Of a stretch of DNA of 36,132 bases, positions 1-17,350 are shown one piece after another; position 1 is the stretch's first letter; every line of letters begins with the position of its first letter. The notes beneath the pieces were generated by a model. That model did no database searches, was not told the DNA's origin, and saw nothing but the letters and a program-made list of their open reading frames with translations. A program made the translations under genes and the position numbers. The DNA comes from an uncultured Clostridium sp. (lineage in GTDB: Bacteria > Bacillota > Clostridia > Lachnospirales > Lachnospiraceae), in contig CAMEFI010000031.1 of NCBI GenBank assembly GCA_945915475.1, positions 1-36,132 on the forward strand. Reading direction: 5' to 3'.

Positions 1-517
1 TCTGATAGAATCTACGCTCGGAAAGACGGATTTCACGAATCTGCTCAAGTAAACGGTCAAAGTACTCTGTAGTAAGCACTGAACCGCCATTTTTCAGACG
101 TTCATCATCCATAGCCCAGCCTTTGATGGTGTAGTCCTTGACGATGCTGTTGGCCCATTTACGAAACTGCACTGCTCGCTCATTATTCACTTTAAAGCCG
201 ACTGCGATAATCATTTGAAGATTATAATGCTTGATATCGCGTGTAACCTGACGAGAACCTTCCGTTTGAACTATCCGAAAATTCCGGATAGTTGAATCTT
301 CCTCAAGTTCTGAATCTGAATAAATTTTTTTAATATGGTCGTTGATTGTACGAACATCCACATCATATAACGTGGCCATCATCTTCTGTGTCAGCCATAT
401 ATTCTCATCCTCATAGCGCATTTCAAAACTGTCCTGTTGGTCGCCGACAGTGGCAACATAGGTCAGATATTCTGCCGCGCTGGAACGGATTGTTACTTCA
501 TCTTTTTTCTTTTTCAA
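1..517 (-). CDS. RhuM family protein, C-terminus cut by window edge
   Basis: The reading frame stays open to base 1, so only the first 172 residues are present. It begins at a TTG (515-517) preceded on the minus strand by AAGGAGG about 8 bases away; no ATG fits this ribosome binding site. Visible family features include residues reading IWLTQKMMATLYDVDVRTIN (a helix-turn-helix-like segment), then STIRNFRIVQTEGSRQVTR and YNLQMIIAVGFKVNNERAVQFRKWA. These match the RhuM family (named from a Salmonella pathogenicity-island protein), whose molecular role is not settled; members are common in restriction-modification and other defence islands. It is the last gene visible in the leftward operon, 70 bases after the DUF262 gene. 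Identification is confident, function is not. Confidence 0.85.
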   Translation of the reverse strand, partial: MKKKKDEVTIRSSAAEYLTYVATVGDQQDSFEMRYEDENIWLTQKMMATLYDVDVRTINDHIKKIYSDSELEEDSTIRNFRIVQTEGSRQVTRDIKHYNLQMIIAVGFKVNNERAVQFRKWANSIVKDYTIKGWAMDDERLKNGGSVLTTEYFDRLLEQIREIRLSERRFYQ

Positions 518-587
518 GTAGAATTCCTCCTTCAGCTCAAACTAATACAACACTTCAAACATTTTTTCGATAAAAAATTGAATTTCT

Positions 588-2366
588 CTATTTACACAAT
601 TTTTCATATGCTTTCTTTACGATTTGGGCCATCAAAATTCTACGCTGATTCAAAAAATCGGGATAAGATAACTGCTCGAAATTCTCTGGAAGGGCATTCT
701 GTGCGCACACCAGCTTATAACCTTCTTCTCCCAGCTTCTCTTTATATCTTGCCACATACTCTGCTGGTGGTGCATCCGAAATGTCAATGTTTGTTGCGTA
801 GTCTAAATATGTAAAGTTAGCAATCTGGTTTCTATCACGGTCATTGTCATAGCCAATTTGCTCAAGATAATGCTTAGGGAAGATATGATGCTTATCAACC
901 GAATTTTTATCACCACTTGTTCCCAGCACAAAATACTGAGATAGTGGCGCAGTGCTAAATAGCATAGGTGTTCCCAAAACATTAATTGCTGCAATATATC
1001 CATACCAAGCTGGTGATGTTGCAGAAGAACTATTCAATTCAGATGGCAACGAATACGTGAAATAGTCATCAGTAAATCTATTCTTAATTACTGAATCCAA
1101 GTAAGTCACGAATTCATCGGCATTATGTACATCTCTCAAATCAGCAAACTGTTTTTCTACCTCTGTTTCTGTTGAGCCCGTATAAAATCCAGTAATCGTT
1201 GACATGAAAATCCATTTGCGGATAATCTTCTGTAAATCAACTGACGGAACCTTGTAATCGTACTTCCCAATCAAATACAAAACATAACTAAATACTACTG
1301 CATTTGATGATGCTACAAAGCTACCTTTTAAATATCCGGCAGTTGCAAACAAATTCATGAATGCGTGCCAATTATTGAGGTTGGTTACAACATCGAGTGA
1401 ATTCTTGAAAATTTCCAAGTTATCTTCTCGCACACTCTGTGTAATCTCACCTGTTTTCAAGTTTTTACCACGAAGCAACATATATGCATAACGAAGTCTT
1501 GCTCTTCTAAACCCTACACCAACAGCCATACGAATAAGGTGTGATGGGTCCACAAGGAGTATCTGATTATAGGATGTTCCATTGGCAGGAATTCTTGATT
1601 CTGCACAGAACTGATTAATCTTATCGTGTACGTCATTATCGTAAACAGCAATTAAGGTTTCAATAAAGTTCTTTTCTGTTAAGTTCTGACCGCCAGAATT
1701 AACTCGAACGAAAATTTCCGCCACATCCTCTTCATCGGCCTTTGAATTGATTTTTAATGTTGGCAGTGAGTAAATACCAAGGTTAAGAAGGTCATTGATG
1801 TTCTCTTCAATTAAGTCCTCCTCATCCTCTGTAAGCATGGCCTCACCGTTTTTCTCTCGACTTTCATTTGCAGATTTTATAAACGCCTTTCTAAACTTGG
1901 AAATGTTATGTTCTTGGTCGGCTGCAAACACACTGCTAATCTCACTAATCCATTCAGGATTGCGCTCATAGGCCTGTGTCCATACCGCAAATTCACGAGT
2001 AAGTGGATTAAAAGAGATTCTAATCTTTCTTTCCTTATAATCCTTATCCTTGATGGTTACACCATACATTGCTGCAAGTAATGCAGTCAAACGCTGCTGC
2101 CCATCAATGACAAGGTCGTCTGGCCGTTTATAGACTTTCTCGTTCTTGCCAATATGACCTGTATTTTCATAGTCATCCGGAGATGCCCAAAGCATGATGT
2201 ATCCAATTGGATAACCTTTCATCATTGAATCGAGCAGCTCACGGACTTTATTATCTTTCCAAACAAAGGGACGCTGAAGGTCAGGTAAACCGATACGTCC
2301 ATTCTTTACATCAGACAATAAATCAGCTACCTTGCTAGGAATATTGTCGAATAATTCTTTTCCCAT
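588..2366 (-). CDS. DUF262 + HNH (GmrSD-like) nuclease
   Basis: A 592-residue protein. The N-terminal DUF262 domain shows GLPDLQRPFVW at about 27-36 and the ParB-like DGQQR motif at 88-92, followed by the usual helical region. Near the C-terminus DKHHIFPKHYLEQIG (HH at 493-494) is an HNH-type (DUF1524-like) nuclease signature. DUF262 and DUF1524 together define the GmrSD type IV restriction family, in which a nucleotide-dependent domain controls cleavage of modified DNA; here both halves are in one chain. The ATG at 2366 has an AAAGGAG site about 9 bases upstream. It follows the small zinc-ribbon gene by 28 bases in the same direction, so it is probably in the same transcript as the type III genes. 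It could be an independent type IV enzyme or an accessory nuclease of this operon. Confidence 0.87.
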   Translation of the reverse strand: MGKELFDNIPSKVADLLSDVKNGRIGLPDLQRPFVWKDNKVRELLDSMMKGYPIGYIMLWASPDDYENTGHIGKNEKVYKRPDDLVIDGQQRLTALLAAMYGVTIKDKDYKERKIRISFNPLTREFAVWTQAYERNPEWISEISSVFAADQEHNISKFRKAFIKSANESREKNGEAMLTEDEEDLIEENINDLLNLGIYSLPTLKINSKADEEDVAEIFVRVNSGGQNLTEKNFIETLIAVYDNDVHDKINQFCAESRIPANGTSYNQILLVDPSHLIRMAVGVGFRRARLRYAYMLLRGKNLKTGEITQSVREDNLEIFKNSLDVVTNLNNWHAFMNLFATAGYLKGSFVASSNAVVFSYVLYLIGKYDYKVPSVDLQKIIRKWIFMSTITGFYTGSTETEVEKQFADLRDVHNADEFVTYLDSVIKNRFTDDYFTYSLPSELNSSSATSPAWYGYIAAINVLGTPMLFSTAPLSQYFVLGTSGDKNSVDKHHIFPKHYLEQIGYDNDRDRNQIANFTYLDYATNIDISDAPPAEYVARYKEKLGEEGYKLVCAQNALPENFEQLSYPDFLNQRRILMAQIVKKAYEKLCK

Positions 2367-2394
2367 CTTCTTACGCTCCTTTCTGGACTAAGGT

Positions 2395-2595
2395 TTAATA
2401 ACTTTTTCTTCTATCTGGGTTTCCGTCCTCATCCAATTTATATGATGAGATGTTTTGACTTGTCATTTCTGAATAACCAACTTCCCCACAATAAGGACAA
2501 TTGGCTGTTTCTCTTTCCTTACCGCCGGGATATACAGTTCCCCAAACTTCATATGCGTACTTTTTTCCGCATTTTTTACATTCTATTATTTCCAT
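2395..2595 (-). CDS. small zinc-ribbon protein
   Basis: A 66-residue protein with two CXXC knuckles (C6/C9 and C33/C36), the pattern of a single zinc ribbon, then a polar charged tail. The ATG at 2595 is preferred because GGTGA lies about 5 bases upstream; an in-frame ATG four codons earlier sits directly on an AAGGA. It begins only 15 bases after the stop of the Res gene and precedes the DUF262 gene in the same direction, so it is likely co-transcribed with them. I do not recognise a named family. A DNA-binding or protein-docking adaptor for the restriction complex is a guess from position only. Confidence 0.7.
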   Translation of the reverse strand: MEIIECKKCGKKYAYEVWGTVYPGGKERETANCPYCGEVGYSEMTSQNISSYKLDEDGNPDRRKSY

Positions 2596-2610
2596 GTATA
2601 TCACCATTCC

Positions 2611-5508
2611 TTACATAAAAAATCCATCTGTTTCAAAGATATGGTCTAGTTCGTCATTAGTCATAGCTTTTGACACCTTGTCCCTTACAGCGCTCTTTGA
2701 CATATCTAAGCGTTTAAAACGATTCTTGCCAGAAGCATCTTTTGACATTCGTATTAGTTGTATTCTTCCAACGCCCGGATTCTGACGAGCATATTCAGCA
2801 AAACCTCTTGCTTTTCCAAGATTATCCTTAAATTCAGGATTATGTGGTTCAAGAATATCAATAACATATCCAAGAATGTCATCTTTTCTTATAATGATAA
2901 AGTCAGGGAAAGTTGGTTTTGTTTCTCCATCAATTTCATAAGGTATGCATAATGCCCATGAACCTCTGGATGGATTACGAATCCAACAAACAAAATCTTC
3001 TTGCTTTTCTTCCTCTTCGATTACTCCGGCTTCCCATGTATTTAGTTTTAGTGTCGCACATCCAGTTGCATCATTAACGAACAGATGATTACGATATTCT
3101 TTGCCTCCTACTTCATGAGGAATCTGTATTGTTTCAGGCAAGCGGAAATTGTGCTTACTGACAACATCACCATCCGAAACTATACTGTCATATTGTCTTC
3201 TGATTTTATCTGAATCAATCGTAGCAATATATCTACGATAATCATCATTCAATCCATGAAAACGTTGCTCCGCATAAAGATTAAGTTTCTTGATGCATTC
3301 ATCATCAGCAACAAACAAAATAACATCTATCTTGAAATTATTAGGTTTTTCAACATCCATGTATTTGTTTCCATAAACCATTCCAATTCCTTCGTTTCCC
3401 AGTTTAACATCAGCTGCACGGAATTGTCTGTCTACATCAGTATCTGTTGTAGTGAACAAATCGTGTACATAAAAATTGTCTACGGTTTCTCCAAAGGCAT
3501 CAAAAATTTGTGTCGCCAGTTTAAACTGCTTAACCTGTAAAACGAGTGCATCATATGAACCGTTGGTCTTCAAGGATTCCACATAATCATGAATCATATC
3601 TGCTATTTCTGTTTGTACTTCACGTATCGCTTCTCTTTTCAATCCTGACATTGTAAGCAAGTGTGCCATCTTATAAAGAGAAGTTAGATAATTGCTAATT
3701 TTTATCGCTCTAACATTATATGAAAGCAACCCGGCATCATTAATGAACTTCATTACCTCTTCTCGGTCAAAAAGGTCTTCAAGCTCCTCATCTTCTTCCG
3801 GCGTAACAGTTTTAGTTTCTACTTCTGTATCATTTTCTGCATCATCTTCTGTCCTCGGAGTTTCTGATTTGGTAACATCACCCATCTCTTCTGCATTAGA
3901 CACCCTATCATGACCCCCAATTGATGGTATAGGCATTACAGGTGTTTCTGAAGTTTCTGGTTTATCTAAACCAGTGTCATGATTTTCTGAAGAATCATCA
4001 TGCTTATCTTCCGGGATAACAGATTGCTGCGACGCATTGCCTTTGTACTCTCCGGTATCCGTATCAAACATATCCAATGTCATCTGACCGGGATGTTGTT
4101 TCTCTTCCTTCTTTTTTCTGGTTTTAACGGTTAAAGTTTCAAACTTTTTACCTGTTAAAGGTTCGCCATAAATATCAGTAGGAATATCTCCACCTTCAGC
4201 ACTCTGCAAAGCATCTACTACTTCTTTTACGGTATCTTCGTTAAAATAAGGCAAATAAAGATGAACATCATTTAATACATCATCAACCTGAATGTGCATC
4301 TGCATAGGTGTTCTTACCATTCGTCCAAGCAACTGAGCAATATAAGTTGCATCAGTAGCATGCTTAAAAGACATCATCGTCTCAGCACGTGGACAATCCC
4401 ATCCTGTTGATAAGTTTTCTTTGAAGAACACCACTCTGATATTTCTGTCATCAGAAATTCTGGAAGGCTCTACATACTGTATGTCAAGGCCGTTGACAGA
4501 AATTGATGATTTAGTATCTCCGAAAGTATGAACAATCTGTCCGTTTTCAAATCTGAATCCAATACGCTCTTCTATTTTGCTAATGCAGTCTCCCAAATTT
4601 GTATCAGTCAATTTGGAACCACTGCCATTTAAAACCTGAATAACAAATACAGGATTAACATAGGCATAATGCTGCTCGTAGCAATACTGTGTCCAATGGT
4701 CCCACTTTTCTTTCCAATCATCTGCTGCCGCCTGAAGAATAGCCATATCATTATTTACAGAACCAGCTTCAGGATAAGTAATAACAATTCTATCCTTTAA
4801 CAATCCGGATGCACGAACTTCATCCGCTGTTACAACTGATTTGTGAATTGTAGAGGAAGTTCCTTCTACCAATGCATTAAAACGTTGTGTCGTTGCAGAC
4901 ATACCAATGACAACTGGCATTGGTGGAATATTATCCTCATCGCTGCCTTTGATGAATTTCTGCATGATGGTAGTTGCTTTGCCTGCTTCACGGCCCTGCA
5001 TACCACGATGCGCTTCATCGATAATAAAATATAAACGGTCACTTTTTTCTCTGACAGTATTCGCAATGGTCTGCCAAATAGTATAAGTTCTGCCATCACC
5101 ATTCTTTGTAAGATTAGATGTTTTGGAAAGCTTCTGTGTGTTCAAAAAGTAAATATGCCCATCATCAAACAATTCTTTATCAAATGAATCTTCGCTCACC
5201 GTTACGCATTGTCCCAGACGGATTTTATCTGCCTTTGTATCAATTTTAATCTTTGATTGTTCATTCAACTGCGGTGAATCAGACAACCATATAATGATAG
5301 AGTTCTGCTGCTCTTCGTAGTTCTCATCACCGAAGAAAATGCTCTCTATCAAAGAAGCCATAATGATAGTTTTTCCGGCACCTGTCGGTGCAGTGAAGGA
5401 AACCACCTGTGGAGAATGTGTCCTATGGTAGCTACCCATCGCCTCAGCAGTTTTCATTCGAATATCTGCGAGAGCTCTTTTTTGAAATGGAAATAATTCA
5501 ACTCTCAT
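2611..5508 (-). CDS. type III restriction enzyme, Res (helicase-nuclease) subunit
   Basis: A 965-residue SF2 helicase. Walker A PTGAGKT is at 41-47, DEAH at 164-167, the SAT motif in IGMSATTQ at about 204-206, and motifs V-VI in NLSTGWDCPRA and QLLGRMVRTP at about 365-401. A very acidic, Ser/Thr-rich linker fills about 485-590. The C-terminus has PDFIII (868-873) and YVIDILEPH (881-889), the position of the type III nuclease domain. In type III systems Res with Mod translocates and cleaves DNA that is unmodified at the Mod sites. The ATG has a GGGAGG site that lies inside the last codons of mod; only two bases separate the genes, indicating translational coupling. The expected Lys of the PD-(D/E)XK core is not in its usual place (residue 886 is Leu), so nuclease activity is less certain than helicase activity. 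Confidence 0.88.
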   Translation of the reverse strand: MRVELFPFQKRALADIRMKTAEAMGSYHRTHSPQVVSFTAPTGAGKTIIMASLIESIFFGDENYEEQQNSIIIWLSDSPQLNEQSKIKIDTKADKIRLGQCVTVSEDSFDKELFDDGHIYFLNTQKLSKTSNLTKNGDGRTYTIWQTIANTVREKSDRLYFIIDEAHRGMQGREAGKATTIMQKFIKGSDEDNIPPMPVVIGMSATTQRFNALVEGTSSTIHKSVVTADEVRASGLLKDRIVITYPEAGSVNNDMAILQAAADDWKEKWDHWTQYCYEQHYAYVNPVFVIQVLNGSGSKLTDTNLGDCISKIEERIGFRFENGQIVHTFGDTKSSISVNGLDIQYVEPSRISDDRNIRVVFFKENLSTGWDCPRAETMMSFKHATDATYIAQLLGRMVRTPMQMHIQVDDVLNDVHLYLPYFNEDTVKEVVDALQSAEGGDIPTDIYGEPLTGKKFETLTVKTRKKKEEKQHPGQMTLDMFDTDTGEYKGNASQQSVIPEDKHDDSSENHDTGLDKPETSETPVMPIPSIGGHDRVSNAEEMGDVTKSETPRTEDDAENDTEVETKTVTPEEDEELEDLFDREEVMKFINDAGLLSYNVRAIKISNYLTSLYKMAHLLTMSGLKREAIREVQTEIADMIHDYVESLKTNGSYDALVLQVKQFKLATQIFDAFGETVDNFYVHDLFTTTDTDVDRQFRAADVKLGNEGIGMVYGNKYMDVEKPNNFKIDVILFVADDECIKKLNLYAEQRFHGLNDDYRRYIATIDSDKIRRQYDSIVSDGDVVSKHNFRLPETIQIPHEVGGKEYRNHLFVNDATGCATLKLNTWEAGVIEEEEKQEDFVCWIRNPSRGSWALCIPYEIDGETKPTFPDFIIIRKDDILGYVIDILEPHNPEFKDNLGKARGFAEYARQNPGVGRIQLIRMSKDASGKNRFKRLDMSKSAVRDKVSKAMTNDELDHIFETDGFFM

Positions 5509-5510
5509 GG

Positions 5511-7601
5511 TTACCTCCCTGTATTAATTCGGAAATTATCCAAATAATCTCTATAAAGTTGATAGCAGTCTTTGCCATCGTAATGTCTTGTCATTTCTCG
5601 ATAAGCACTTTCGGAATCTGTCACAATGAACACTGTTTTTATCTCTGGGTGCCTATCAAGTTCTTTATCAAATTCCTGATAATATACTTCATCAATCAAA
5701 ACCGCCATTTTGTTTTCAGGTAGAATCATCATTTGAGGTAATTCTTCTGTATAAAACTCTGGACATTTTCCTACAGCTCCGCCCTTCATCCATAGCACAG
5801 GAATTAATTCTTTAAACTGACGTCCAAGCGCAACGGATGTCTTATCAAGAAAACTCAATTTACAAAATACTGCGTTGGCACGAAATCCATCTGACATATC
5901 TATTTCTGTATTTAGATATTTGTCTTTGACTGGATTGCCATCTACATCAACACCTTTAATTGTGCATACAGTTCGTGGCCAAGTCACATAATGTGCTATA
6001 CCATAAGACTCCCATTCATCGTCACCGGGATGCAAATCTTTTTTTGATAGGGCTTTTGCCTCATCTTCAGAAACTTCATTGTTTGTTACCATAATACAAC
6101 GTCTCTTCCCACCGTCCTCTGAGTTTAACAAATTGACCGCGTGGAGTGTTGTTCCTGAGCCAGCAAAGAAGTCTATTATTAACGCATTTTTCTTACGTAC
6201 CACAATCTTTAAAGCATCCTCTACCGCATAAAGTGATTTAGGGTAAGGGAACTTTCTATCCAATAGAAATTTTGAGAGCAATTTTGAGCCATGCCATCCT
6301 GCATTATGTGAGGTCTTATTCCACACTGTTTTTGGTGCACGTAATGAACCTCCGGATTTTTCCACTAAAACCGCTGCTCCAACTTCATTAATACTTTGAA
6401 TAATAACTTCTCCTCGCTCAATTCTTTTTTCAGTACCTTCATTTACAGTTAAAACAGACCACCCACTCGCTTTTCTCGAGGTCTTTCCTAGTCGCAAAAG
6501 TCCCTTAGCTAATCTACGTTTTGCAACTTCTGTGCCAGTACGCCACCTTGCTTCCTTACCATCAGCAGTCATTGGCCATATTACAGTTTGACCTTCAGGA
6601 ACTTTGACAGTTTCTTTAGGAACTCCTAACGGAATAGGGTCTCCGATAGACATTATTTTTCCGGTATCCTGATTAATAAAAATTGGGTAGAACAAGTTTT
6701 TAGAGTTTTCCCTTAAATTGCCTTTTCCTGTTCGAACAAACTGAAACCACAATTGACTCTTGGTTGATGATTGGCCTTCATTAAGCATATCATCCTCTGA
6801 TTTAGTGACCTCTGATTTGCCTATAAATACAAAAAATATGTATTCATCCGCCCTAGAAAATAATCCATCTCTTGTAGAGCCTTGACTACTAATGACACTG
6901 CTGACCATCTGTATTCTAGCATCTGAAAAGATTTCCTCCAACAAACACCCCAAATGCAAATATTCTTTTTCATCAATAGTAACAATCAATACAGAATCCT
7001 CTGGATTCAAAAGTTTCTTAGCAAGCTTCAGTCTCTTTTCCATGAAAGATAGCCATTTGCTATGACGGTATGCATCGCTGCTATCCACATAATCATTGTT
7101 GTATTTCCAATCTTTAGCACCTGTATTATATGGCGGGTCAATGTAAATACAATCCACTTTTCCGGCATAAAGATATTCTAAAAGTTGCAATGCATGATAA
7201 TTGTCTGCTTCAATCAATGTATGCCACAGGTCACTGTCCGGAGCATTTTCCACAGTATCCAGCAACTTTAAAGTCGGATAGATAGGCTCGCCAAATTCAG
7301 CAACTACAACAATTTCGTTCATCTGAAATGTCGATTGCTCATGTGTATTTCTACTTTCACAAATCACGTCTGAGCCATCAATTTTCAATACAGTATAGAT
7401 ATCGCGTACATACCCTGTTTTTAGTGCCACTTTTCTTCCTACTGTAATAGGCATATCATAAAGCGGAGTGCATTCCGGAAGGTGTTCCTCAAATACTAAT
7501 CCGAATTTTTTCTGTTTTACCAATTTATCTGTTTCTTGAAGAATTCTTTCTCTTAGAGCAGTATCATCAATCTGCATGATAAGGTCTTGTAATAAAGCCA
7601 C
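5511..7601 (-). CDS. type III DNA methyltransferase, Mod subunit
   Basis: About 696 residues. The catalytic motif IV DPPYNTG (about 155-161) comes before the SAM-binding motif FAGSGTT (about 479-485), the order of beta-class N6-adenine/N4-cytosine methyltransferases to which type III Mod subunits belong. The long middle part between them would hold the target-recognition domain; the N-terminal 120 residues are not a common Mod module that I recognise. Mod binds the recognition site and methylates one strand, and is needed with Res for cleavage. I choose the GTG at 7601 because GAGGTGA sits about 5 bases before it; another GTG at 7610 overlaps that site. It follows the radical-SAM gene by about 10 bases and precedes res by 2 bases. 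Confidence 0.9.
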   Translation of the reverse strand: MALLQDLIMQIDDTALRERILQETDKLVKQKKFGLVFEEHLPECTPLYDMPITVGRKVALKTGYVRDIYTVLKIDGSDVICESRNTHEQSTFQMNEIVVVAEFGEPIYPTLKLLDTVENAPDSDLWHTLIEADNYHALQLLEYLYAGKVDCIYIDPPYNTGAKDWKYNNDYVDSSDAYRHSKWLSFMEKRLKLAKKLLNPEDSVLIVTIDEKEYLHLGCLLEEIFSDARIQMVSSVISSQGSTRDGLFSRADEYIFFVFIGKSEVTKSEDDMLNEGQSSTKSQLWFQFVRTGKGNLRENSKNLFYPIFINQDTGKIMSIGDPIPLGVPKETVKVPEGQTVIWPMTADGKEARWRTGTEVAKRRLAKGLLRLGKTSRKASGWSVLTVNEGTEKRIERGEVIIQSINEVGAAVLVEKSGGSLRAPKTVWNKTSHNAGWHGSKLLSKFLLDRKFPYPKSLYAVEDALKIVVRKKNALIIDFFAGSGTTLHAVNLLNSEDGGKRRCIMVTNNEVSEDEAKALSKKDLHPGDDEWESYGIAHYVTWPRTVCTIKGVDVDGNPVKDKYLNTEIDMSDGFRANAVFCKLSFLDKTSVALGRQFKELIPVLWMKGGAVGKCPEFYTEELPQMMILPENKMAVLIDEVYYQEFDKELDRHPEIKTVFIVTDSESAYREMTRHYDGKDCYQLYRDYLDNFRINTGR

Positions 7602-7611
7602 TATGTTCACC

Positions 7612-8388
7612 TCAATTTTCTGTTATTGTCTTTTCTTTAATGTGATATTGAATACCACGCATTTCACAGAACCGTATTACCTCTACAGCTTTTTCGTTAT
7701 AGAAGTCCTTATGCTTCTTAAACGAACTCGCTTCTTTGCTGTAATTGGTTCTTCCGAATATTATCCTGTCTGTAAAACTCACTGCCTCCAGCAATTCCGA
7801 TAAATCTTGCTCAATCATATTTGGTGTCGGGTAGGGTTCAATACTTACCCACGTTTTACATCCAGCTTCATGAAGCTTTAGCAATGACTTCAGCCTCTCT
7901 TGATATGGTGCCGCACCCGGTTCCATTCTTTCTCGATAAGACTCTTTCAAAGAAACCAATGTGATTCCATACTCATTTTCTTTTGCAAGAGAAGCTAAAG
8001 ACACCGGAAGAATGCCCTTTGTAAGTACTGTGCATTTAATTCCTGCATCGTTTAATTTTTTAATTGATTTCAATGCCATGTCCTCAACTTCATCATAACC
8101 ATACATGAATGGGTCCGTTGAAAAGCACAACTGCACGGATTCAATCTTCCCCTTAAGTCGAGGTATTTCTTTATCCAATAATTCAAGTGTATTTGACACA
8201 AGTTTTGGTTTGCACCAATCCTCATAATCTTTCACTTGTCCAAAACGCTTTTTTTGTAAATATGCATAACAAGGAAACTTACATCCATGTGAACAACCCT
8301 GCACGAAATTCATTGTATAATCACCATACTCAACGCCTGTTTTATAGAGCATGCTTTTACGTTGTATATAATCTTCTATCTCAGCCAT
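7612..8388 (-). CDS. radical-SAM-like protein with CX3CX3C motif (TcmP partner)
   Basis: A 258-residue protein with GCSHGCKFPCYAY at about 31-43 giving Cys32, Cys36 and Cys40. The surroundings (VQGCSHGC, then LCFSTDPFM, TVLTKG, SLKESYRERMEPGA, WVSIEPYPTPN) resemble the SplB/COG1533 and Gp37/Gp68 branch of radical SAM proteins, which bind a 4Fe-4S cluster and cleave SAM. The spacing is CX3CX3C rather than the usual CX3CX2C. Proteins of this three-Cys type are typically encoded next to TcmP, as here (TcmP stop is 6 bases upstream). The substrate is unknown; relatives such as spore photoproduct lyase act on DNA bases. The ATG at 8388 has AAAGGA upstream inside the tcmP stop region. A role in base modification linked to the downstream type III genes is an inference. 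Confidence 0.8.
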   Translation of the reverse strand: MAEIEDYIQRKSMLYKTGVEYGDYTMNFVQGCSHGCKFPCYAYLQKKRFGQVKDYEDWCKPKLVSNTLELLDKEIPRLKGKIESVQLCFSTDPFMYGYDEVEDMALKSIKKLNDAGIKCTVLTKGILPVSLASLAKENEYGITLVSLKESYRERMEPGAAPYQERLKSLLKLHEAGCKTWVSIEPYPTPNMIEQDLSELLEAVSFTDRIIFGRTNYSKEASSFKKHKDFYNEKAVEVIRFCEMRGIQYHIKEKTITEN

Positions 8389-8394
8389 GAATCG

Positions 8395-9516
8395 TCATTT
8401 CCTTTCTGAAAATGTAATTGTTTTTTTGCTCACTATAGCGTCATAATCATCTTTAAGACTTTTCTTTATGTCCTTACGGTATCCATCGCTTGGAAAGACC
8501 GGATGCGCATCAAGCAATTTCCAGATTTCTTCTAATGGAACATCCTTTTGTCCGCAGAAGTGTTCCTGAACATAGCTTGCAACGTCAGTCAAATCATAGC
8601 AATACTCGTCCGTATTATGCTTAGCAAATCCATTACCTGAAAAATCAAATACAAGCTGTCCTTCCATACCGTGTCTGTTTTTGGTAGATGATTTGCCATC
8701 AAATGTTTTCCACGCTGTTGATTTAAAAAGCTTAAATCCCACTTCATGGCTGGTACAATGCACCAAATCATATACCAGCGCATTTCTTGTATTAAAAAAC
8801 GGAAATGCAGCCACATAATAATCCCTTGAAGCAGAACCTTTGAGTTTGTTGATGATTTCCAGTACTCTTTTTTCGTATGCTTCTTTGTTGCTACCATACG
8901 GAACCAATTCAGAAATATCCTCAACTTGATATGTACCGGTGTACTTTTTCTTTTTTTCTTCCTTCTTTACCTGTGGTATCGCTCTAACAGAATCCGATAT
9001 CATATGGTTAATAAGTACTTCTCCCCAATTTCTAAAGAACGGAGTCAAAGCATTCCAATCGATTGAAGCATCATATGGGTCGTATAAAAGGAAGAAATTC
9101 ATATGAGTATTATTGTTTAACTGAGGCCCTATCCATTTCAACAAGTCATTACCATCTTGAGTGGTTGTGACAATTCTGAAATTGCGTTCTTCCTCTGGTA
9201 AATGCTTTTTCAGTTCTTCAATTTTCTTTTGATTATAATCGTTAAAATATAGTTGAACTTGTTTATGCGGATATGTTCTTGCCACATCCAGTAGAGCGTT
9301 TGCAACTCTAATAGGTGTTCCATAAACAATTTCACCTTCATCACTTTTATACACGCCGCTGTTGCACATACAATCAATAAAAATAATGCCACTACAACTA
9401 TCAAGTAGCATAAGTTTCTGTGCCCATGACTTTATGTATGTTTCAATTAATTCAAACTTTTTAATCGTGTGCGGATGGGCATCGCTAATAATTTTGTCGT
9501 TATTACTGCTTGACAT
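8395..9516 (-). CDS. tcmP: three-Cys-motif partner protein TcmP
   Basis: A 373-residue protein matching the TcmP family: the N-terminal HPHTIKKFELIETYIKSWAQ, the Rossmann-like IIFIDCMCNSGVY at about 44-56 and FFLLYDPYD at about 141-149 recall a class I methyltransferase fold with a DPxx motif, although methylation is unproven for the family. The family is defined by its adjacency to the three-Cys radical-SAM-like protein, which is the next gene downstream (6-base gap). The start ATG at 9516 is preferred over the GTG at 9525, which overlaps the GAGGTG ribosome binding site. The XRE gene ends 11 bases upstream, so all are in one operon. Biochemical role unknown. Confidence 0.85.
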   Translation of the reverse strand: MSSSNNDKIISDAHPHTIKKFELIETYIKSWAQKLMLLDSCSGIIFIDCMCNSGVYKSDEGEIVYGTPIRVANALLDVARTYPHKQVQLYFNDYNQKKIEELKKHLPEEERNFRIVTTTQDGNDLLKWIGPQLNNNTHMNFFLLYDPYDASIDWNALTPFFRNWGEVLINHMISDSVRAIPQVKKEEKKKKYTGTYQVEDISELVPYGSNKEAYEKRVLEIINKLKGSASRDYYVAAFPFFNTRNALVYDLVHCTSHEVGFKLFKSTAWKTFDGKSSTKNRHGMEGQLVFDFSGNGFAKHNTDEYCYDLTDVASYVQEHFCGQKDVPLEEIWKLLDAHPVFPSDGYRKDIKKSLKDDYDAIVSKKTITFSERK

Positions 9517-9527
9517 ATTAAGCACCT

Positions 9528-9746
9528 CTATTCTCTATTCTCATCTTCAGGAATCAAATCGACCACATCACCAATATTGCAATTAAGTGCTTTACAAACT
9601 TTCATCAAAACATCCATACTAACTGTTTCGCCTTTTGAAAGCTTTGTAACCGAAGCCCAGCTAATTCCTGCAACTGCCTGTAAATCCTTTTTCTTCATAT
9701 CTTTATCTATAAGGATTTTCCATAATTTTTTATAACTTACTTCCAC
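9528..9746 (-). CDS. XRE family repressor (HTH Cro/CI type)
   Basis: A 72-residue single-domain DNA-binding protein: KLWKILIDKDMKKKDLQAVAGISWASVTKLSKGE carries the two helices of a Cro/CI HTH, followed by VSMDVLMKVCKALNCNIGDVV, which is typical of the compact YozG/HipB-like group. I choose the GTG at 9746 because AGAGGTGA lies just upstream and because the predicted transcription start is near 9794, which would leave the ATG at 9788 with almost no leader. It is the first gene of the leftward operon and faces the ImmA-type protease. By analogy with ImmR/ImmA pairs it probably represses its own promoter and perhaps the divergent one, through the repeats at 9823-9861. Confidence 0.9.
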   Translation of the reverse strand: MEVSYKKLWKILIDKDMKKKDLQAVAGISWASVTKLSKGETVSMDVLMKVCKALNCNIGDVVDLIPEDENRE

Positions 9747-9800
9747 TGTAGTCACCTCTCTATTCTGCAAAAGGACACACTTATCCAAGTTACTGTTATT

Positions 9801-9829
9801 AGTATATCACTTTCATTCAATTAATACAA
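9801..9829 (-). promoter_or_regulatory. sigma-A-type promoter of the XRE-tcmP-mod-res operon
   Basis: On the minus strand TTGTAT (-35, 9824-9829) and TATACT (-10, 9801-9806) are separated by exactly 17 bases. Transcription would start near 9794, 48 bases before the GTG of the XRE gene. The -35 box lies within the first AATACAAGA repeat, which is expected if the XRE protein autoregulates. Confidence 0.65.
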
Positions 9830-9861
9830 GAGTTTTTCTTCATAAATACAAGAATTTTCTT
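9823..9861. promoter_or_regulatory. direct repeats, candidate operators for the XRE repressor
   Basis: The nine bases AATACAAGA occur at 9823-9831 and again at 9845-9853, both followed by a T-rich run ending in CTT. The spacing of 22 bases is about two helical turns, so the two sites face the same side of the DNA. The second copy also contains AAGAA-N2-TTCTT (9850-9861), a short dyad. Together they sit between the two divergent promoters and overlap the -35 box of the leftward one. Confidence 0.55.
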
Positions 9862-9870
9862 TTTAGACGA

Positions 9871-9899
9871 TTGAAAAATTCATCCAAACTTGATATAAT
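9871..9899 (+). promoter_or_regulatory. sigma-A-type promoter of the ImmA-recombinase genes
   Basis: TTGAAA (9871-9876) and TATAAT (9894-9899) are separated by 17 bases, a near-consensus vegetative promoter. Transcription should start near 9906, only three bases before the first in-frame ATG (9909), so either the mRNA is leaderless or a later start is used. Confidence 0.7.
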
Positions 9900-9941
9900 A
9901 GTTAATATATGATTATACATAGCAGAAAGGATGTGTCATCT

Positions 9942-11537
9942 TTGGGTAAGTACAAAAATGAAATAGAACAATTTATATATGAGATATGCTATAAATCAAT
10001 GTGGGCGGAAGCCTACAATTACATATACAATCACCCTTATCAATTAAACTTATCTTTCTCACGTATTGAATATCCAGATAGTGCGACTTTGGAAGATATG
10101 GTTCTTGAATTCACAAAGGACATAAGAATCCAAGATGACCACCTGCTTTTTAACGCGATTGTCTCATGCACAATTCTTCTTACAGAAGACAATTACAAAG
10201 GCTTTTCTTCTTGCGATACAAGTCAGTGGCTTGACTTATCCTGTGATGCAAAAATTACAGACAAACTCGAATCCTTTGTTGTCGCATCAATAAAACCATA
10301 TTCAGGTATCCGCGCTATGAAAAAAGACGGAGCCGCAGTATCAAAAAATATTGTGCCAATTATCGCTAAAAAAGATTTGGAAGCAGAAGCCACTGCTTTC
10401 TTGGAAACCTATTACCCAGAAGCTTTAGTTACACCTACTCCTGTACCTATTGAAGACATCGCCACTAAAATGGGATTGGAAGTGATTCAAGGTTATAGAT
10501 TATCCGACGATTTCAGTGCATTCGGACAGATTTGCTTTTCGGATTGTGAGGCTGAAGTTTATGACCTTTTTAAATGTAAGCAAAATGTTATCCAAGTAAA
10601 GCGGGGCACAATTCTCATAGATGCCTATACATTTTGGGAACGTAATCTGGGGTGCGTCAAAAATACAATTACCCACGAAGTTTTCCACTGGTATAAGCAT
10701 CGAATGTATGCAACCATCAAACAAATTCTGCGCAACGAAAAAGTGATTGCATGTAGATGCCCCTCTTCAATGGTATATCCAGACAGTAACACGGAGTGGA
10801 CTGACGAGCAAATTATGGAGTGGCAAGCAAACAGCATAGCTCCACGAATTTTAATGCCATTTAAAACCTTCAAATTAAAAGTTGAAGAACTGTATCAAAA
10901 GTATGATTATAAGAACACTCCTCTTAAATTAGCTGTACTAACTTGTGTCGCTGATGACCTTGCAAAATTTTATGGCGTTTCGAGACAATCTGCACTTATA
11001 AGAATGATGGAAACCGGCTATAAGGAAGCCTCAAGTGTTTATCAATATGACAGTAATTCTGCCTTTCATTCATATATAAGCCGAGAGGATGCCTTCAATG
11101 CTTATTGCGATAATCAAGAATTAAGGCGTCTCATCGACGAGGAATTATTCAAATATGTTGATGGGTATTTTGTAATCAATGACAATCAATTTATAGAATC
11201 ATCTTCTGATGGTTCTGTATGTTTAACAGATTACGCATGGTCTCATTTAGAAGAATGTACCTTAAAATTCACTTGGAAATCCATCAAATCTTCTAATGCT
11301 CACAAGCACCTACCTTTTGAAATACTTCATAGAGCAAATGCTGACCAAAAGGTATCTAATTTTGATAAAGTTCAAAATAATGATGTTATTTCAGAAGCGA
11401 CCAAGAAAAAACACGAAGAGTTTGAAAAACAAAATGAGCTCAGAAAATCTCTTTATGGTAATAAATCATGTTGGGAAACAATGTATGAAATTATTCAATC
11501 CAAAGGTCTAAGCAAGCTGAATACTTGTACAGCCTGA
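9942..11537 (+). CDS. ImmA/IrrE family metallopeptidase with long N-terminal extension
   Basis: About 531 residues from TTG 9942 (542 from ATG 9909). The zinc protease motif HEVFHWYKH is at about 245-253 and the third-ligand segment [14 protein letters not shown] lies about 50 residues later, the standard ImmA arrangement. ImmA-type proteases cleave XRE repressors in integrative elements and phages; a cognate XRE gene is divergent here. The N-terminal 150 residues and the C-terminal 170 residues go well beyond the minimal ImmA domain (about 170) and could sense a signal. TTG 9942 is chosen because AGAAAGG (9924-9930) precedes it and the transcription start near 9906 leaves no leader for the ATG; the 11-base spacing is long, so the start is uncertain. 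The recombinase gene follows after 19 bases. Confidence 0.85.
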
Positions 11538-11556
11538 TAGAAAGCGAGGTTATTTG

Positions 11557-13122
11557 ATGGGAAATGTTATGGTTATCCCTGCAAGAAGGCAAGTTGGAAA
11601 TACCGCCAGACAGCAGGATGATAAGCCTAAGCTCCGAGTCGCGGCGTACTGTAGAGTTAGTACTGACAGCGATGAGCAGGCTACAAGTTATGAAGCTCAG
11701 GTTGAGCACTACACAGAATTTATTCAAAAGAACCCTGAATGGGAATTTGCAGGCATATACGCTGATGATGGTATTTCCGGTACCAACACTAAAAACCGTG
11801 ATGAATTTAATCGAATGATTAAAGATTGCGAAGCCGGAACCATTGACATGATTATTACAAAGTCAATCAGCCGATTTGCCCGAAACACGCTGGACTGCTT
11901 GAAATACATTCGACAGCTCAAAGATAAGAATATCCCGGTATATTTTGAAAAAGAAAACATCAACACAATGGATGCCAAGGGAGAAGTCTTAATAACTATT
12001 ATGGCTTCCCTGGCCCAGCAGGAATCACAATCCCTTAGCCAAAATGTAAAGCTGGGATTGCAGTTTCGCTACCAGAATGGTCAAGTACAAGTAAACCACA
12101 ATCATTTTCTCGGCTACACCAAGGATGCAGATGGAAATCTTATCATTGACCCGGAGCAAGCTGAGGTAGTAAAAAGGATTTATCGTGAATATCTTGAAGG
12201 CTATTCGATGAATAAAATCGCTAAGGGACTTGAAGCAGATGGTATTCTCACAGGCGCCGGGAAAACAAAATGGTGGACGAGCACCATAAACAAAATACTA
12301 CGCAATGAAAAATACATCGGTGACGCGCTTCTTCAAAAGACTTACACCACCGACTTTCTGAACAAGACCAGAGTAAAAAATAACGGTATCGTTCCGCAAT
12401 ACTATGTAGAAGGAAATCACGAAGCCATTATTCCAAAGGATATCTTCTTACGAGTGCAAGAAGAACTGGTACGCAGGCGTGTGGTTAAAACCAGTGCCAA
12501 TGGCAAAAAGCGCAGTTACAGCTGCAACCACTGCTTTGCGCAGATAGTCATTTGCGGCGAATGTGGAGAAATGTTCCGCAGAATCCACTGGAACAATCGC
12601 GGCTGCAAATCCATCGTCTGGCGTTGCCTTAGCAGGCTGGAACCCACCGGTCAGGAATGCCATGCAAGGACCGTCAATGAAGCTGTATTAGAGAATGTGG
12701 TAGTTCAGGCCATTAACACGCTCCTTGGCGACAAATCAACCAATCAGGCGCAGCTACAACAGAACATCGCCAAAGTTATCAGAGAGGCTCAGAAGACCAC
12801 CGCTGATGGCATTGATGAACAGCTGATGGAACTCCAGAAAGAGCTTCTCCAAAAGGCTAACAACAAAGAAGCCTATGATGAGATTGCTGACCAGATTTTC
12901 AAGCTCCGCGAGCAGCGTGAAAAATGCACTGTTGACACCGCTGCCAGAGACGCGCAGATTGCAAGAATCAATGAACTGCAGGACTTCATTAAACAGCAGC
13001 GTACCGACCTTGTTGAATTCAACGAGGCCTTGGTAAAACGCTGGCTCAAACAGATAACCGTCTGGGAAGACCACTTTACAGTGGAACTTAAGTCCGGACT
13101 GAAAATTGATATTGAAGGTTAA
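11557..13122 (+). CDS. large serine site-specific recombinase
   Basis: A 521-residue recombinase. The N-terminal resolvase domain has [13 protein letters not shown] with nucleophile Ser35 and the family segments [22 protein letters not shown] and [10 protein letters not shown]. The recombinase domain (about 160-270) includes [17 protein letters not shown], and the zinc ribbon has CNHC-x-CGECG-type cysteines at about 325-375, followed by a coiled-coil rich in Glu/Lys/Gln. This is the architecture of integrases that move ICEs and phages. ATG 11557 is used because GAGG lies 7 bases before it; a TTG sits one codon upstream. Base composition appears more GC-rich than in the adjacent immA-like gene. 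It shares the ImmA promoter and ends at the terminator at 13140-13180. Confidence 0.93.
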
Positions 13123-15833: not shown

Positions 15834-17249
15834 TTATTTATCTTTTCTTGACATCAATACCACCGTCTCAACATGGCCACTATGGCCGAACTGGTCCACA
15901 GCGCACACTTTTTTCACCTCATATCCCGCTGCCACCAGCATCTTCACATCCCTGGCAAGAGTAGCAGGGTCACAGCTTACATACACAATCCGGTTCGGCT
16001 GCATTTTAACCATGGTTGAAATGGCGACTTCATCGCAGCCCTTACGTGGTGGATCTACCACGATTACATCCGCAAATTCTCCGGTCTGTTCATACTGTTT
16101 TGGCAGTACTTCTTCTGCCTTTCCCACATAGAATTCCACATTGGTGATGCCGTTCATCCGGGCATTTTTCTTTGCATCTTCTATGGCCTCCGGAATAATC
16201 TCCACGCCCTTCACCTTCCTCGCCTTCTGTGCCAGAAACAAAGAAATGGTTCCAATTCCACAATACAGATCCCATACCATTTCATCTCCATGCAGATCAG
16301 CATATTCCAGAGCTTTTCCATACAATTTCTCCGTCTGCTCCGGATTGACCTGATAAAAAGACAATGGACTGATCTGATACCTGACAGTTCCAATATAATC
16401 GGTAATGGTGTCGCTGCCCCAGATGGTCCGGCATGTACTTCCAAGAATCCGATTGGTCTTTTCCTCATTGATATTCAAGGAAATACTGGTCATTCCCGGA
16501 ATATCTTTCAGACTCTGCACCAGTTCCTGTTCCACATTTACCGACTTGGCACCAATTGGGGACGCAATCTTCCCCACCAGTTCTTTCCCGTTGAGAATGA
16601 CACAGGCCATCACTTCACCGGTCTTTTTTCCTACTCTGGTCAGTATGTGCCGCACCAGACCTCTATGCTGCTCCTCATCATATGGTTCCACCCGGTATTG
16701 CTCCATAAATATGCGAAATTTCCGAATAATTTCATCATTGACTGTCGCCTGCAGATAACACACATCCGTATCGATTACATGGTGTGTCCTCCCGGCATAA
16801 AATCCAATCACAAGGTTACCATCCTTATCCCTCCGCACAGGGAACTGCGCCTTATTCCGATACCGGAGGGCAGGCGGTTCCATCCCAATGATTGGTTCCA
16901 TCTTCTCTTCTATCTCTTCCATGCCACCAATCCTCTTTAGGCAATTCATAACCTTGCTCTGCTTCCATTCCAACTGCCTGTCGTATCGGACCTGCATAAT
17001 CGTACAGCCACCGCACTGCCTTGCATGGGGACAAATGGGCTCCACCCGGTCTGACGAAGCTGTTACAATCTCCATAAGCCTTCCATAGGCATAATTCTTC
17101 TTCGCTTTCACAATCTTAATCCGGGCAACATCCCCCGGCACGGTGTCCTTCACAAATACTGCCATGCCGTCAATGTGTCCGATTCCCTCACCATCATTTC
17201 CGATATCTTCTATTGTAATCTCATATTCTTTATTTTTCTCCAAAACCAT
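15834..17249 (-). CDS. rlmD: 23S rRNA (uracil-C5)-methyltransferase, RlmD/RlmCD type
   Basis: A 471-residue TrmA-family enzyme. An N-terminal TRAM domain (about 1-62) precedes the iron-sulfur cysteines in CPHARQCGGC (73, 79, 82). The SAM-binding motif is VWDLYCGIGTISLFLA and the catalytic region has DVIVVDPPRKGCD and YVSCDPATLARD, whose Cys is the nucleophile attacking uracil C6. In Gram-positive bacteria one such enzyme methylates U747 and U1939 of 23S rRNA. ATG 17249 is preferred because GGAAAGAG precedes it; a TTG four codons upstream is also open. This is a housekeeping gene and marks the chromosome side of the island boundary. Confidence 0.93.
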   Translation of the reverse strand: MVLEKNKEYEITIEDIGNDGEGIGHIDGMAVFVKDTVPGDVARIKIVKAKKNYAYGRLMEIVTASSDRVEPICPHARQCGGCTIMQVRYDRQLEWKQSKVMNCLKRIGGMEEIEEKMEPIIGMEPPALRYRNKAQFPVRRDKDGNLVIGFYAGRTHHVIDTDVCYLQATVNDEIIRKFRIFMEQYRVEPYDEEQHRGLVRHILTRVGKKTGEVMACVILNGKELVGKIASPIGAKSVNVEQELVQSLKDIPGMTSISLNINEEKTNRILGSTCRTIWGSDTITDYIGTVRYQISPLSFYQVNPEQTEKLYGKALEYADLHGDEMVWDLYCGIGTISLFLAQKARKVKGVEIIPEAIEDAKKNARMNGITNVEFYVGKAEEVLPKQYEQTGEFADVIVVDPPRKGCDEVAISTMVKMQPNRIVYVSCDPATLARDVKMLVAAGYEVKKVCAVDQFGHSGHVETVVLMSRKDK

Positions 17250-17350
17250 ATCTCTTTCCAATCACTTCTTAATTATCACACAAGCCATAGCTCGTGTACC
17301 TTTACAATACCACAAAGTTCTTAAGAAATAAAGGAAGTCAAAGTAAAATA

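Follow-up and report, generated by a model that had tools for sequence, protein, structure and literature searches.

What do a TcmP protein and a radical SAM protein do at the head of a type III restriction-modification operon? The question is raised by 36,132 nucleotides of DNA from an uncultured Clostridium sp. of the Lachnospiraceae (assembly GCA_945915475.1, contig CAMEFI010000031.1, positions 1 to 36,132; hereafter the window), which form the whole of contig C31 in a 3.09 Mb genome of 81 contigs. Eight open reading frames (ORFs) lie on its minus strand and encode, from right to left, an XRE regulator, TcmP, a radical SAM protein (rSAM), Mod, Res, a zinc-ribbon protein, a DUF262/HNH protein and RhuM. 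An earlier reading of the letters alone (the original prediction) had described one XRE-controlled operon of these eight leftward genes and proposed that the TcmP-rSAM pair either makes a base modification seen by Mod and Res or extends the defence. All eight genes exist, and the named proteins match their families. We found related pairs beside restriction systems of types I to IV, and XRE-TcmP-rSAM is probably a self-contained, self-regulated cassette. It stands next to restriction systems that are exchanged for one another, in most cases ahead of them, and is often carried by phages or other mobile elements. The five genes at the centre of the question are:

9528..9746, minus strand: XRE regulator, 72 aa from its likely GTG start (HTH_26, 80.5 bits; the ORF is listed as 9528-9788, with an upstream TTG)
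8395..9516, minus strand: TcmP, the three-Cys-motif partner (TIGR04474, 118 bits, above the curated cut-off of 53; likely ATG at 9516, ORF listed to 9525)
7612..8388, minus strand: rSAM, with the CX3CX3C cysteines C32, C36 and C40 (PF04055, 52.2 bits, cut-off 29.5)
5511..7610, minus strand: type III modification methyltransferase Mod (PADLOC MTase_III, 521 bits; DPPYNTG, FFAGSGTT)
2611..5508, minus strand: type III restriction subunit Res (ResIII, 55.2 bits; helicase motifs and a PD...DILEPH nuclease-like motif)

Restriction partners of the TcmP-rSAM pair

We compared 64 rSAM loci, given L numbers here. The window TcmP as query gave seven loci, and TIGR04474 matched in 10 of 194 genomes (the window's own included), seven of them above the cut-off; five loci from the TcmP search and four from the TIGR04474 search are among the 64. 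So are the window, one phage record, a class sample (391 genomes, 10 matches), a phylum sample (398 genomes, 14 matches; both match counts include the window's genome) and the 30 of 60 viral-contig loci with at least 52% identity, the other 30 (23-38%) being left out of motif and neighbour counts. L069 and L079 have no upstream gene in their stretch; in 56 of the 62 remaining loci the gene immediately before rSAM is TcmP, on the same strand. The other six (L049, L074, L075, L076, L077 and L107) have a different gene at this place, and TcmP is in two pieces in L067 and L096. Exact rSAM repeats (L044, L083, L087, L088 and L100) are kept in this count and in that of the cysteine motif, CX3CX3C, which is present in 64 of 64 loci.

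Which genes stand next to the pair? We assigned partners, from clusters and domains, in the 55 loci of an rSAM tree, which omits the five repeats, L079 (96% identical to L002), the cut or broken L069 and L077, and L075, a long fused frame. A restriction or defence partner was assigned in 31 loci: type III in 17, type I in five, GmrSD in two, McrBC in two, a HindIII-like endonuclease with its methylase in two, a type IIG-like methylase in two, and TIR with Abi_C in one. The partner lies upstream of the pair in L068, L103 and L105 and on the opposite strand in L106; a 97-aa ORF (L095) or a GIY-YIG/DUF4357 protein (L047) stands between, an HNH protein precedes McrB/McrC in L043, and the L086 partner was assigned by clustering alone. 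No partner was assigned in 24 of the 55 loci, three of which (L042, L085 and L091) end soon after the pair. A missing assignment is not proven absence, because a scan of 149 of 152 neighbour proteins from 20 of these 24 loci, its matches tallied across loci and not by locus, includes HsdS, a type II methylase, MADS, HEC-07, PDC-M24 and AbiLi among the families listed (25 of 153 Pfam, 25 of 75 PADLOC). In 20 of 51 loci TcmP has an XRE relative directly before it; the partners among them are type III, type I, type II, type IIG-like and GmrSD.

Where does the shared DNA end? Seven pairs of oriented loci were compared at the DNA level, and in all four pairs with different partners similarity ended 0 to 51 bases past the rSAM gene. 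L090 (GmrSD) and L092 (HindIII-like) are 78% identical from -2254 to +51 around the rSAM end, with no similarity beyond. The match runs from -1973 to +2 between L047 (type I) and L095 (type IIG-like), from -1915 to +35 between L043 (McrBC) and L080 (type III), and up to 0 between L084 (GmrSD) and L092, which also have much of an upstream phage backbone in common. Between L084 and L090, which have the same partner (GmrSD), the match continues to +4069; L091, also in the comparison, ends with its contig. The TcmP proteins of L090, beside a type IV system, and L092, beside a type II system, are 90.5% identical (82% for L084 and L092). Because the partners differ and similarity stops after rSAM, the pair is an exchangeable module and not part of type III chemistry. 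The shared border, the recurrent XRE and the exchange of partners together mean that the two genes act like a cassette, one that often includes the regulator.

On the rSAM tree the 31 typed loci need 13 partner changes, the minimum for seven labels being six. Several observations weaken the cassette reading: (i) L092 and L094, both HindIII-like, match up to +2 and then again, over 3.5 kb, from about +400, and since they share a partner yet lose similarity, the sharp border is partly an intergenic effect; (ii) partner types are clustered on the tree (type III needs 7 changes, against a shuffled mean of 14.7) and only 8 of the 52 internal branches have good support, which makes 13 a soft number; (iii) a partner was assigned in 8 of the 22 other genomes that have the rSAM in the two samples, all eight with an rSAM at least 61% identical, and since this amounts to 5 of 9 in the class sample (one of the five being TIR/Abi_C) and 3 of 13 in the phylum sample, the restriction link weakens among distant rSAMs; and (iv) the loci were collected by searching for the pair itself, half of them from viral contigs, where cargo genes cluster anyway. 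As far as the sequences tell, partner exchange is recurrent but not free.

Is the pair tied to type III systems? The order XRE-TcmP-rSAM-Mod-Res is found in Blautia sp. An249 (L003), Faecalicatena faecalis (L004), a Lachnospiraceae metagenome-assembled genome (L005) and two genomes of the window's family (L021 and L022); L002 and L006 have TcmP-rSAM-Mod-Res without an XRE match. Relative to the window, these seven loci are 75-76% identical in Res, 70-78% in rSAM and 57-67% in TcmP. Because the five-gene order recurs in independent genera, it is more than chance. The co-occurrence of TcmP and its three-Cys partner with mod and res, which the original prediction had proposed to look for in other genomes, was thus found. 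The link is real and recurrent but not specific, related pairs standing also beside type I, II and IV systems.

Seen from Res, the association is partial. With a threshold of E 1e-60, 9 of 391 genomes and 6 of 194 have a relative of Res, the window's own being in both counts. Among the 13 other genomes (G numbers), three have TcmP-rSAM beside Res (G268, G033 and G063), G364 has TcmP-DUF5131 placed after Res, and in eight the flanks that were fetched contain no TcmP and no rSAM; the Res of G086 lies at a contig edge, which leaves 12 genomes assessable. All four genomes with a Res at least 71% identical have TcmP, and none of the eight with a more distant assessable Res has it. We reject the idea that Res proteins of this family cannot do without the pair, as 8 of 12 assessable relatives are without TcmP.

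The proteins of the cassette and their relatives

TcmP resembles class I S-adenosylmethionine (AdoMet) methyltransferases in its sequence motifs and presumably binds AdoMet. Its motifs D51-C-M-x-N-x-G57, N95-D96 and D149-P-Y-D (residues counted from the listed ORF, to 9525) are kept in order in 14 rows, and D51, G57, D149 and P150 are invariant in 20 more diverse rows. In hhalign, TcmP gave a modest 44% with the 23S/tRNA m5U methyltransferase family (tRNA_U5-meth_tr) of the window gene at 15834-17261, with motifs I, II and IV in register, and 0.0-0.4% with seven non-methyltransferase families (Res, rSAM, the IrrE-like family, DUF2800, AIPR, serine recombinase and RhuM). Two points tell against a methyltransferase: the values with Mod (6%) and HsdM (1%) are low, motif I being aligned, and motif IV reads DP[YF][DG], not DPPY. 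Another TcmP, about 290-310 aa long and strongly diverged, which matches the first at 98.5% in hhalign, stands between TcmP and rSAM in L003, L004, L005, L006, L021, L022, L045, L081 and L082, that is, in six of the seven type III relatives (not L002); the window is without it. Two TcmP queries matched one phage record each, and plasmids gave no match for a DUF5131-type TcmP at E 1e-10.

The gene of rSAM begins 6 bases 3' of TcmP, as expected of the adjacent three-Cys partner. Its predicted CX3CX3C radical SAM identity was borne out by the PF04055 match and the motif CSHGCKFPC, and CX3CX3C is also present in 31 of 31 rows of the A5 alignment. This invariant motif departs from CX3CX2C, the canonical motif of the radical SAM superfamily. 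In hhalign, rSAM matched the TIGR04470-type pairB (5 rows) at 98.9%, a family retrieved through its weaker matches to TIGR04470 (16 rows) at 98.5%, DUF5131 (3 rows) at 81% and the PflA control (10 rows) at 21%. We tentatively take the 16-row family to be spore-photoproduct-lyase-like (SPL-like), with no spore photoproduct lyase among the sequences fetched. Although rSAM is like both families, the members printed have CX3CX2C, the extra residue of rSAM being a proline before the third cysteine in the alignment with the 16-row family, and rSAM falls below the TIGR04470 cut-off (37 against 410 bits).

CX3CX3C is not new in print, since a review (PMC9692996, in excerpt) gives it once for NifB, along with CX3CX2C, and a sactibiotic paper contains the term. 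Searched against PDB sequences, the profiles of rSAM and TcmP had no match at E 0.1 and no credible one at E 10, and plasmids gave no rSAM match at E 1e-20. Six phage records matched rSAM, one over its full length at 68% and one at 73% over a third of the query. In bicaudaviruses, the archaeal two-tailed viruses (phage records H3-H6), there is a radical SAM protein that shares about 30% identity with the window's rSAM across 72% of its length.

Mod and Res look like a type III system of the expected kind, with a variable middle part of Mod (about residues 230-450 in 14 rows, beside the DPPYNTG and FFAGSGTT motifs) and the 2-base Mod-Res junction that had been predicted. They differ from known type III systems in being preceded by XRE-TcmP-rSAM and in a Res motif that ends in EPH, not E-x-K. 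The helicase motifs of Res are conserved, and PD...DILEPH is present in 12 of 12 rows (the window Res, 2611-5508, and 11 relatives), with a histidine where PD-(D/E)XK enzymes have lysine. The Mod gene of L065 (10509-12623) is broken up into three frames, and Res and the pair are open. A protein of cluster c16 lies 3' of Res in L003, L004, L045 and L093; the L003 protein of this cluster contains a domain of AIPR, a family of the abortive-infection type.

Is this an undescribed system, as had been suggested? TcmP matches PDC-M30A of PADLOC at 56.9 bits (E 4e-16, no curated cut-off) and PDC-M41A at 40 bits. Component B of PDC-M30/M41 matched rSAM at 15.9-16.9 bits along about 55 residues, far short of the 241 positions that the model spans. 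We infer that component B is DUF5131, because the B models and DUF5131 match the same N-terminal stretch of rSAM; rSAM scores 17.6 bits against DUF5131, below the cut-off of 28.9. Component A is like TcmP here, whereas the partner here belongs to a separate CX3CX3C radical SAM family. The cassette is a variant of TcmP candidates already listed, with a different, CX3CX3C partner. Pairs of TcmP and DUF5131 occur in L008, L024 and L170, the last two beside Mod-Res genes; in L170 (10432-12289) TcmP (319 bits with the pooled TcmP profile) and DUF5131 come after Mod-Res instead of before.

PDC-M30 is predicted in 32 of 100 P. aeruginosa strains according to the retrieved part of PMC10855318. In S. 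meliloti, the TcmP gene SMa2243 is listed next to the Hna phage-defence gene SMa2245 and has a similar expression change (PMC12445080, in excerpt). BrxR/CapW (PMC9122601) likewise is one upstream element that goes with diverse defence systems, and RptR (PMC12255303) likewise stands before type I and other modules; in the excerpts of both, these are regulators alone, whereas the recurrent element here includes two enzyme-like proteins. The cassette is not described in the passages retrieved from those four papers or from PMC10853773, PMC12429752, PMC10250203, PMC9692996, PMC12988326, PMC7641849 and PMC13356809. Among the matches listed from openly licensed PubMed Central papers we found no functional study of the pair or cassette and no description of an exchangeable neighbour.

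What the cassette may do

What could one pair of proteins do beside so many restriction systems? The best explanation overall, which we hold tentatively, at somewhat less than even odds, is that it forms an autonomous two-enzyme nucleic-acid-modifying defence layer that can stand beside any restriction enzyme. From the observed pairing, motifs and partner exchange we propose that XRE would control the cassette, TcmP would bind AdoMet and a nucleic acid, and rSAM would make a 5'-deoxyadenosyl radical and alter that nucleic acid; the modification may then by itself stop phages from multiplying, in addition to the cutting done by the restriction system. That the pair may act alone is suggested by two phage loci, L098 with a capsid gene and L101 with a terminase gene near the pair, in neither of which a restriction gene was assigned. 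Judged by these sequence comparisons, the second option of the original prediction, that the pair extends the defence, would fit better than a mark read by Mod and Res.

A more far-reaching version, possible but doubtful, makes XRE-TcmP-rSAM a universal restriction companion, a single nucleic-acid-modifying module that serves types I to IV, for example by disarming phages that escape cutting, and that passes from one system to another as a unit ending at the rSAM stop codon. To our knowledge, which rests on no exhaustive search, there is no accessory enzyme common to restriction types I to IV. If the companion is real, one two-protein module exchanged among all four types would suggest a step from which restriction of every kind benefits. 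The cassette also makes TcmP pairs without an assigned role, such as PDC-M30, testable beside different restriction systems.

A serious rival, though we think it unlikely, is a repair or self-protection companion that mends restriction lesions or breaks in the cell's own DNA, as spore photoproduct lyase does with its lesion. It would presumably suit types I to IV alike, and of the four radical SAM families compared rSAM is nearest the TIGR04470-type pairB and the family that we take to be SPL-like. The two phage loci without an assigned restriction gene (L098 and L101) speak against it, and we found no repair relative of TcmP, the PDB sequence searches giving nothing credible.

Still less probable is simple hitch-hiking, in which TcmP-rSAM is phage cargo that shares a defence slot with restriction genes and has no joint function with them. 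The phage backbone shared by many copies and the 24 of 55 loci without an assigned partner would be expected from it; yet in most assigned loci the restriction gene lies 3' of the pair, on the same strand and at a short distance, and the upstream XRE recurs with different partners.

Could the pair instead make a base modification read by Mod and Res, the five genes being one modification-dependent restriction system? Tight gaps and the recurrent order with Mod-Res suggest it, as do the placing of a methyltransferase-like and a radical SAM protein next to a DNA methyltransferase and the presence of TcmP beside Res in all four other genomes with a Res at least 71% identical. Against this stand the related pairs beside type I, II and IV systems, the catalytic motifs and variable middle part that Mod has of its own, and the 8 of 12 assessable Res relatives without TcmP. 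Type IV enzymes attack modified DNA, whereas type I-III enzymes spare it, and a near-identical TcmP serves types II and IV; for this reason such a mark, the first option of the original prediction, is improbable. Just as improbable is that the pair changes the hypermodifications of phage DNA and so opens it to restriction enzymes that they would otherwise block: bases are the target of SPL-type radical chemistry, and modified phage DNA blocks types I-III, but McrBC and GmrSD, which target modified DNA, would lose from removal of the mark.

The operon and its neighbourhood

How far does the operon extend? The listed ORFs are spaced 2, 6, 1, 2, 3, 28 and 70 bases apart from XRE to RhuM, and the first gap is 11 bases with the likely starts (XRE GTG 9746, TcmP ATG 9516), read from the window sequence and begun alike in relatives. 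The predicted gaps of 2 to 11 bases are close to these values. From the gaps we infer that the first six genes are co-transcribed; DUF262 and RhuM are preceded by wider spaces, which could hold further promoters. A single promoter for the operon is plausible. The sequence 5' of XRE is partly conserved in 20 aligned loci, and in the window an inverted repeat lies near the -35 region. A promoter consensus scan of 1-10100 gave 29 promoter-like sites against 34.8 in shuffles, and thus no excess; the single terminator-like site in the same stretch is located inside Mod. The remaining features of this region are:

9801..9854, minus strand: putative promoter/operator, suggested by the inverted repeat TTCTT-N9-AAGAA (9854-9836) and a -10-like TATACT (9806-9801)
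2395..2607, minus strand: zinc-ribbon-like protein, 70 aa, with two CxxC pairs
588..2366, minus strand: DUF262/HNH protein, GmrSD-like and hence type IV-like (GmrSD_N 112.8 bits; GmrSD_C 18 bits, below the cut-off of 23)
2..517, minus strand: RhuM protein, incomplete at the contig end (PF13310, 142.9 bits)
9909..11537, plus strand: divergent IrrE-like phage-family protein (phrog_4031, 342 bits)
11554..13122, plus strand: large serine recombinase, CcrB/CcrC-like, a probable mobility gene (Resolvase 125 bits, Recombinase 89.8 bits)

As a unit, the predicted operon holds for the five conserved genes XRE-TcmP-rSAM-Mod-Res, while the zinc-ribbon, DUF262/HNH and RhuM genes are no fixed part of it. 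We reject the eight genes as one unit, since a phmmer search in the ORFs from 40 related loci matched neither the zinc-ribbon nor the DUF262 protein (E 1e-8 and 1e-15); the DUF262 protein (cluster c95) has no clustered relative in the 64 loci either. It resembles type IV GmrSD in its GmrSD_N match, the GmrSD_C match being weak. The RhuM cluster c15 recurs in L022, L083 (the same sequence as L022), L023 and L068.

Many copies of the pair lie beside a phage backbone of DNA polymerase A, an Enc34-type single-strand-binding protein and DUF2800 (clusters c8-c10, each in 10 of 64 loci). The IrrE-like cluster c5 is present in 15 of 64 loci, the window and one duplicate included. In the window the IrrE-like gene is followed by the large serine recombinase, which scores 141.7 bits against the CcrB model, far below the cut-off of 900, then by two unassigned genes and an m5U methyltransferase gene (15834-17261, tRNA_U5-meth_tr) that we take to be RlmD-like. 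Its family (c14) is also found near the cassette in L021, L045, L064, L065 and L093. Of seven regions beside the RlmD-like gene of genus relatives, five are long, and these have little in common with the window beyond that gene; the region of G009 has a 427-aa gene (88%) and RhuM (74%) as in the window.

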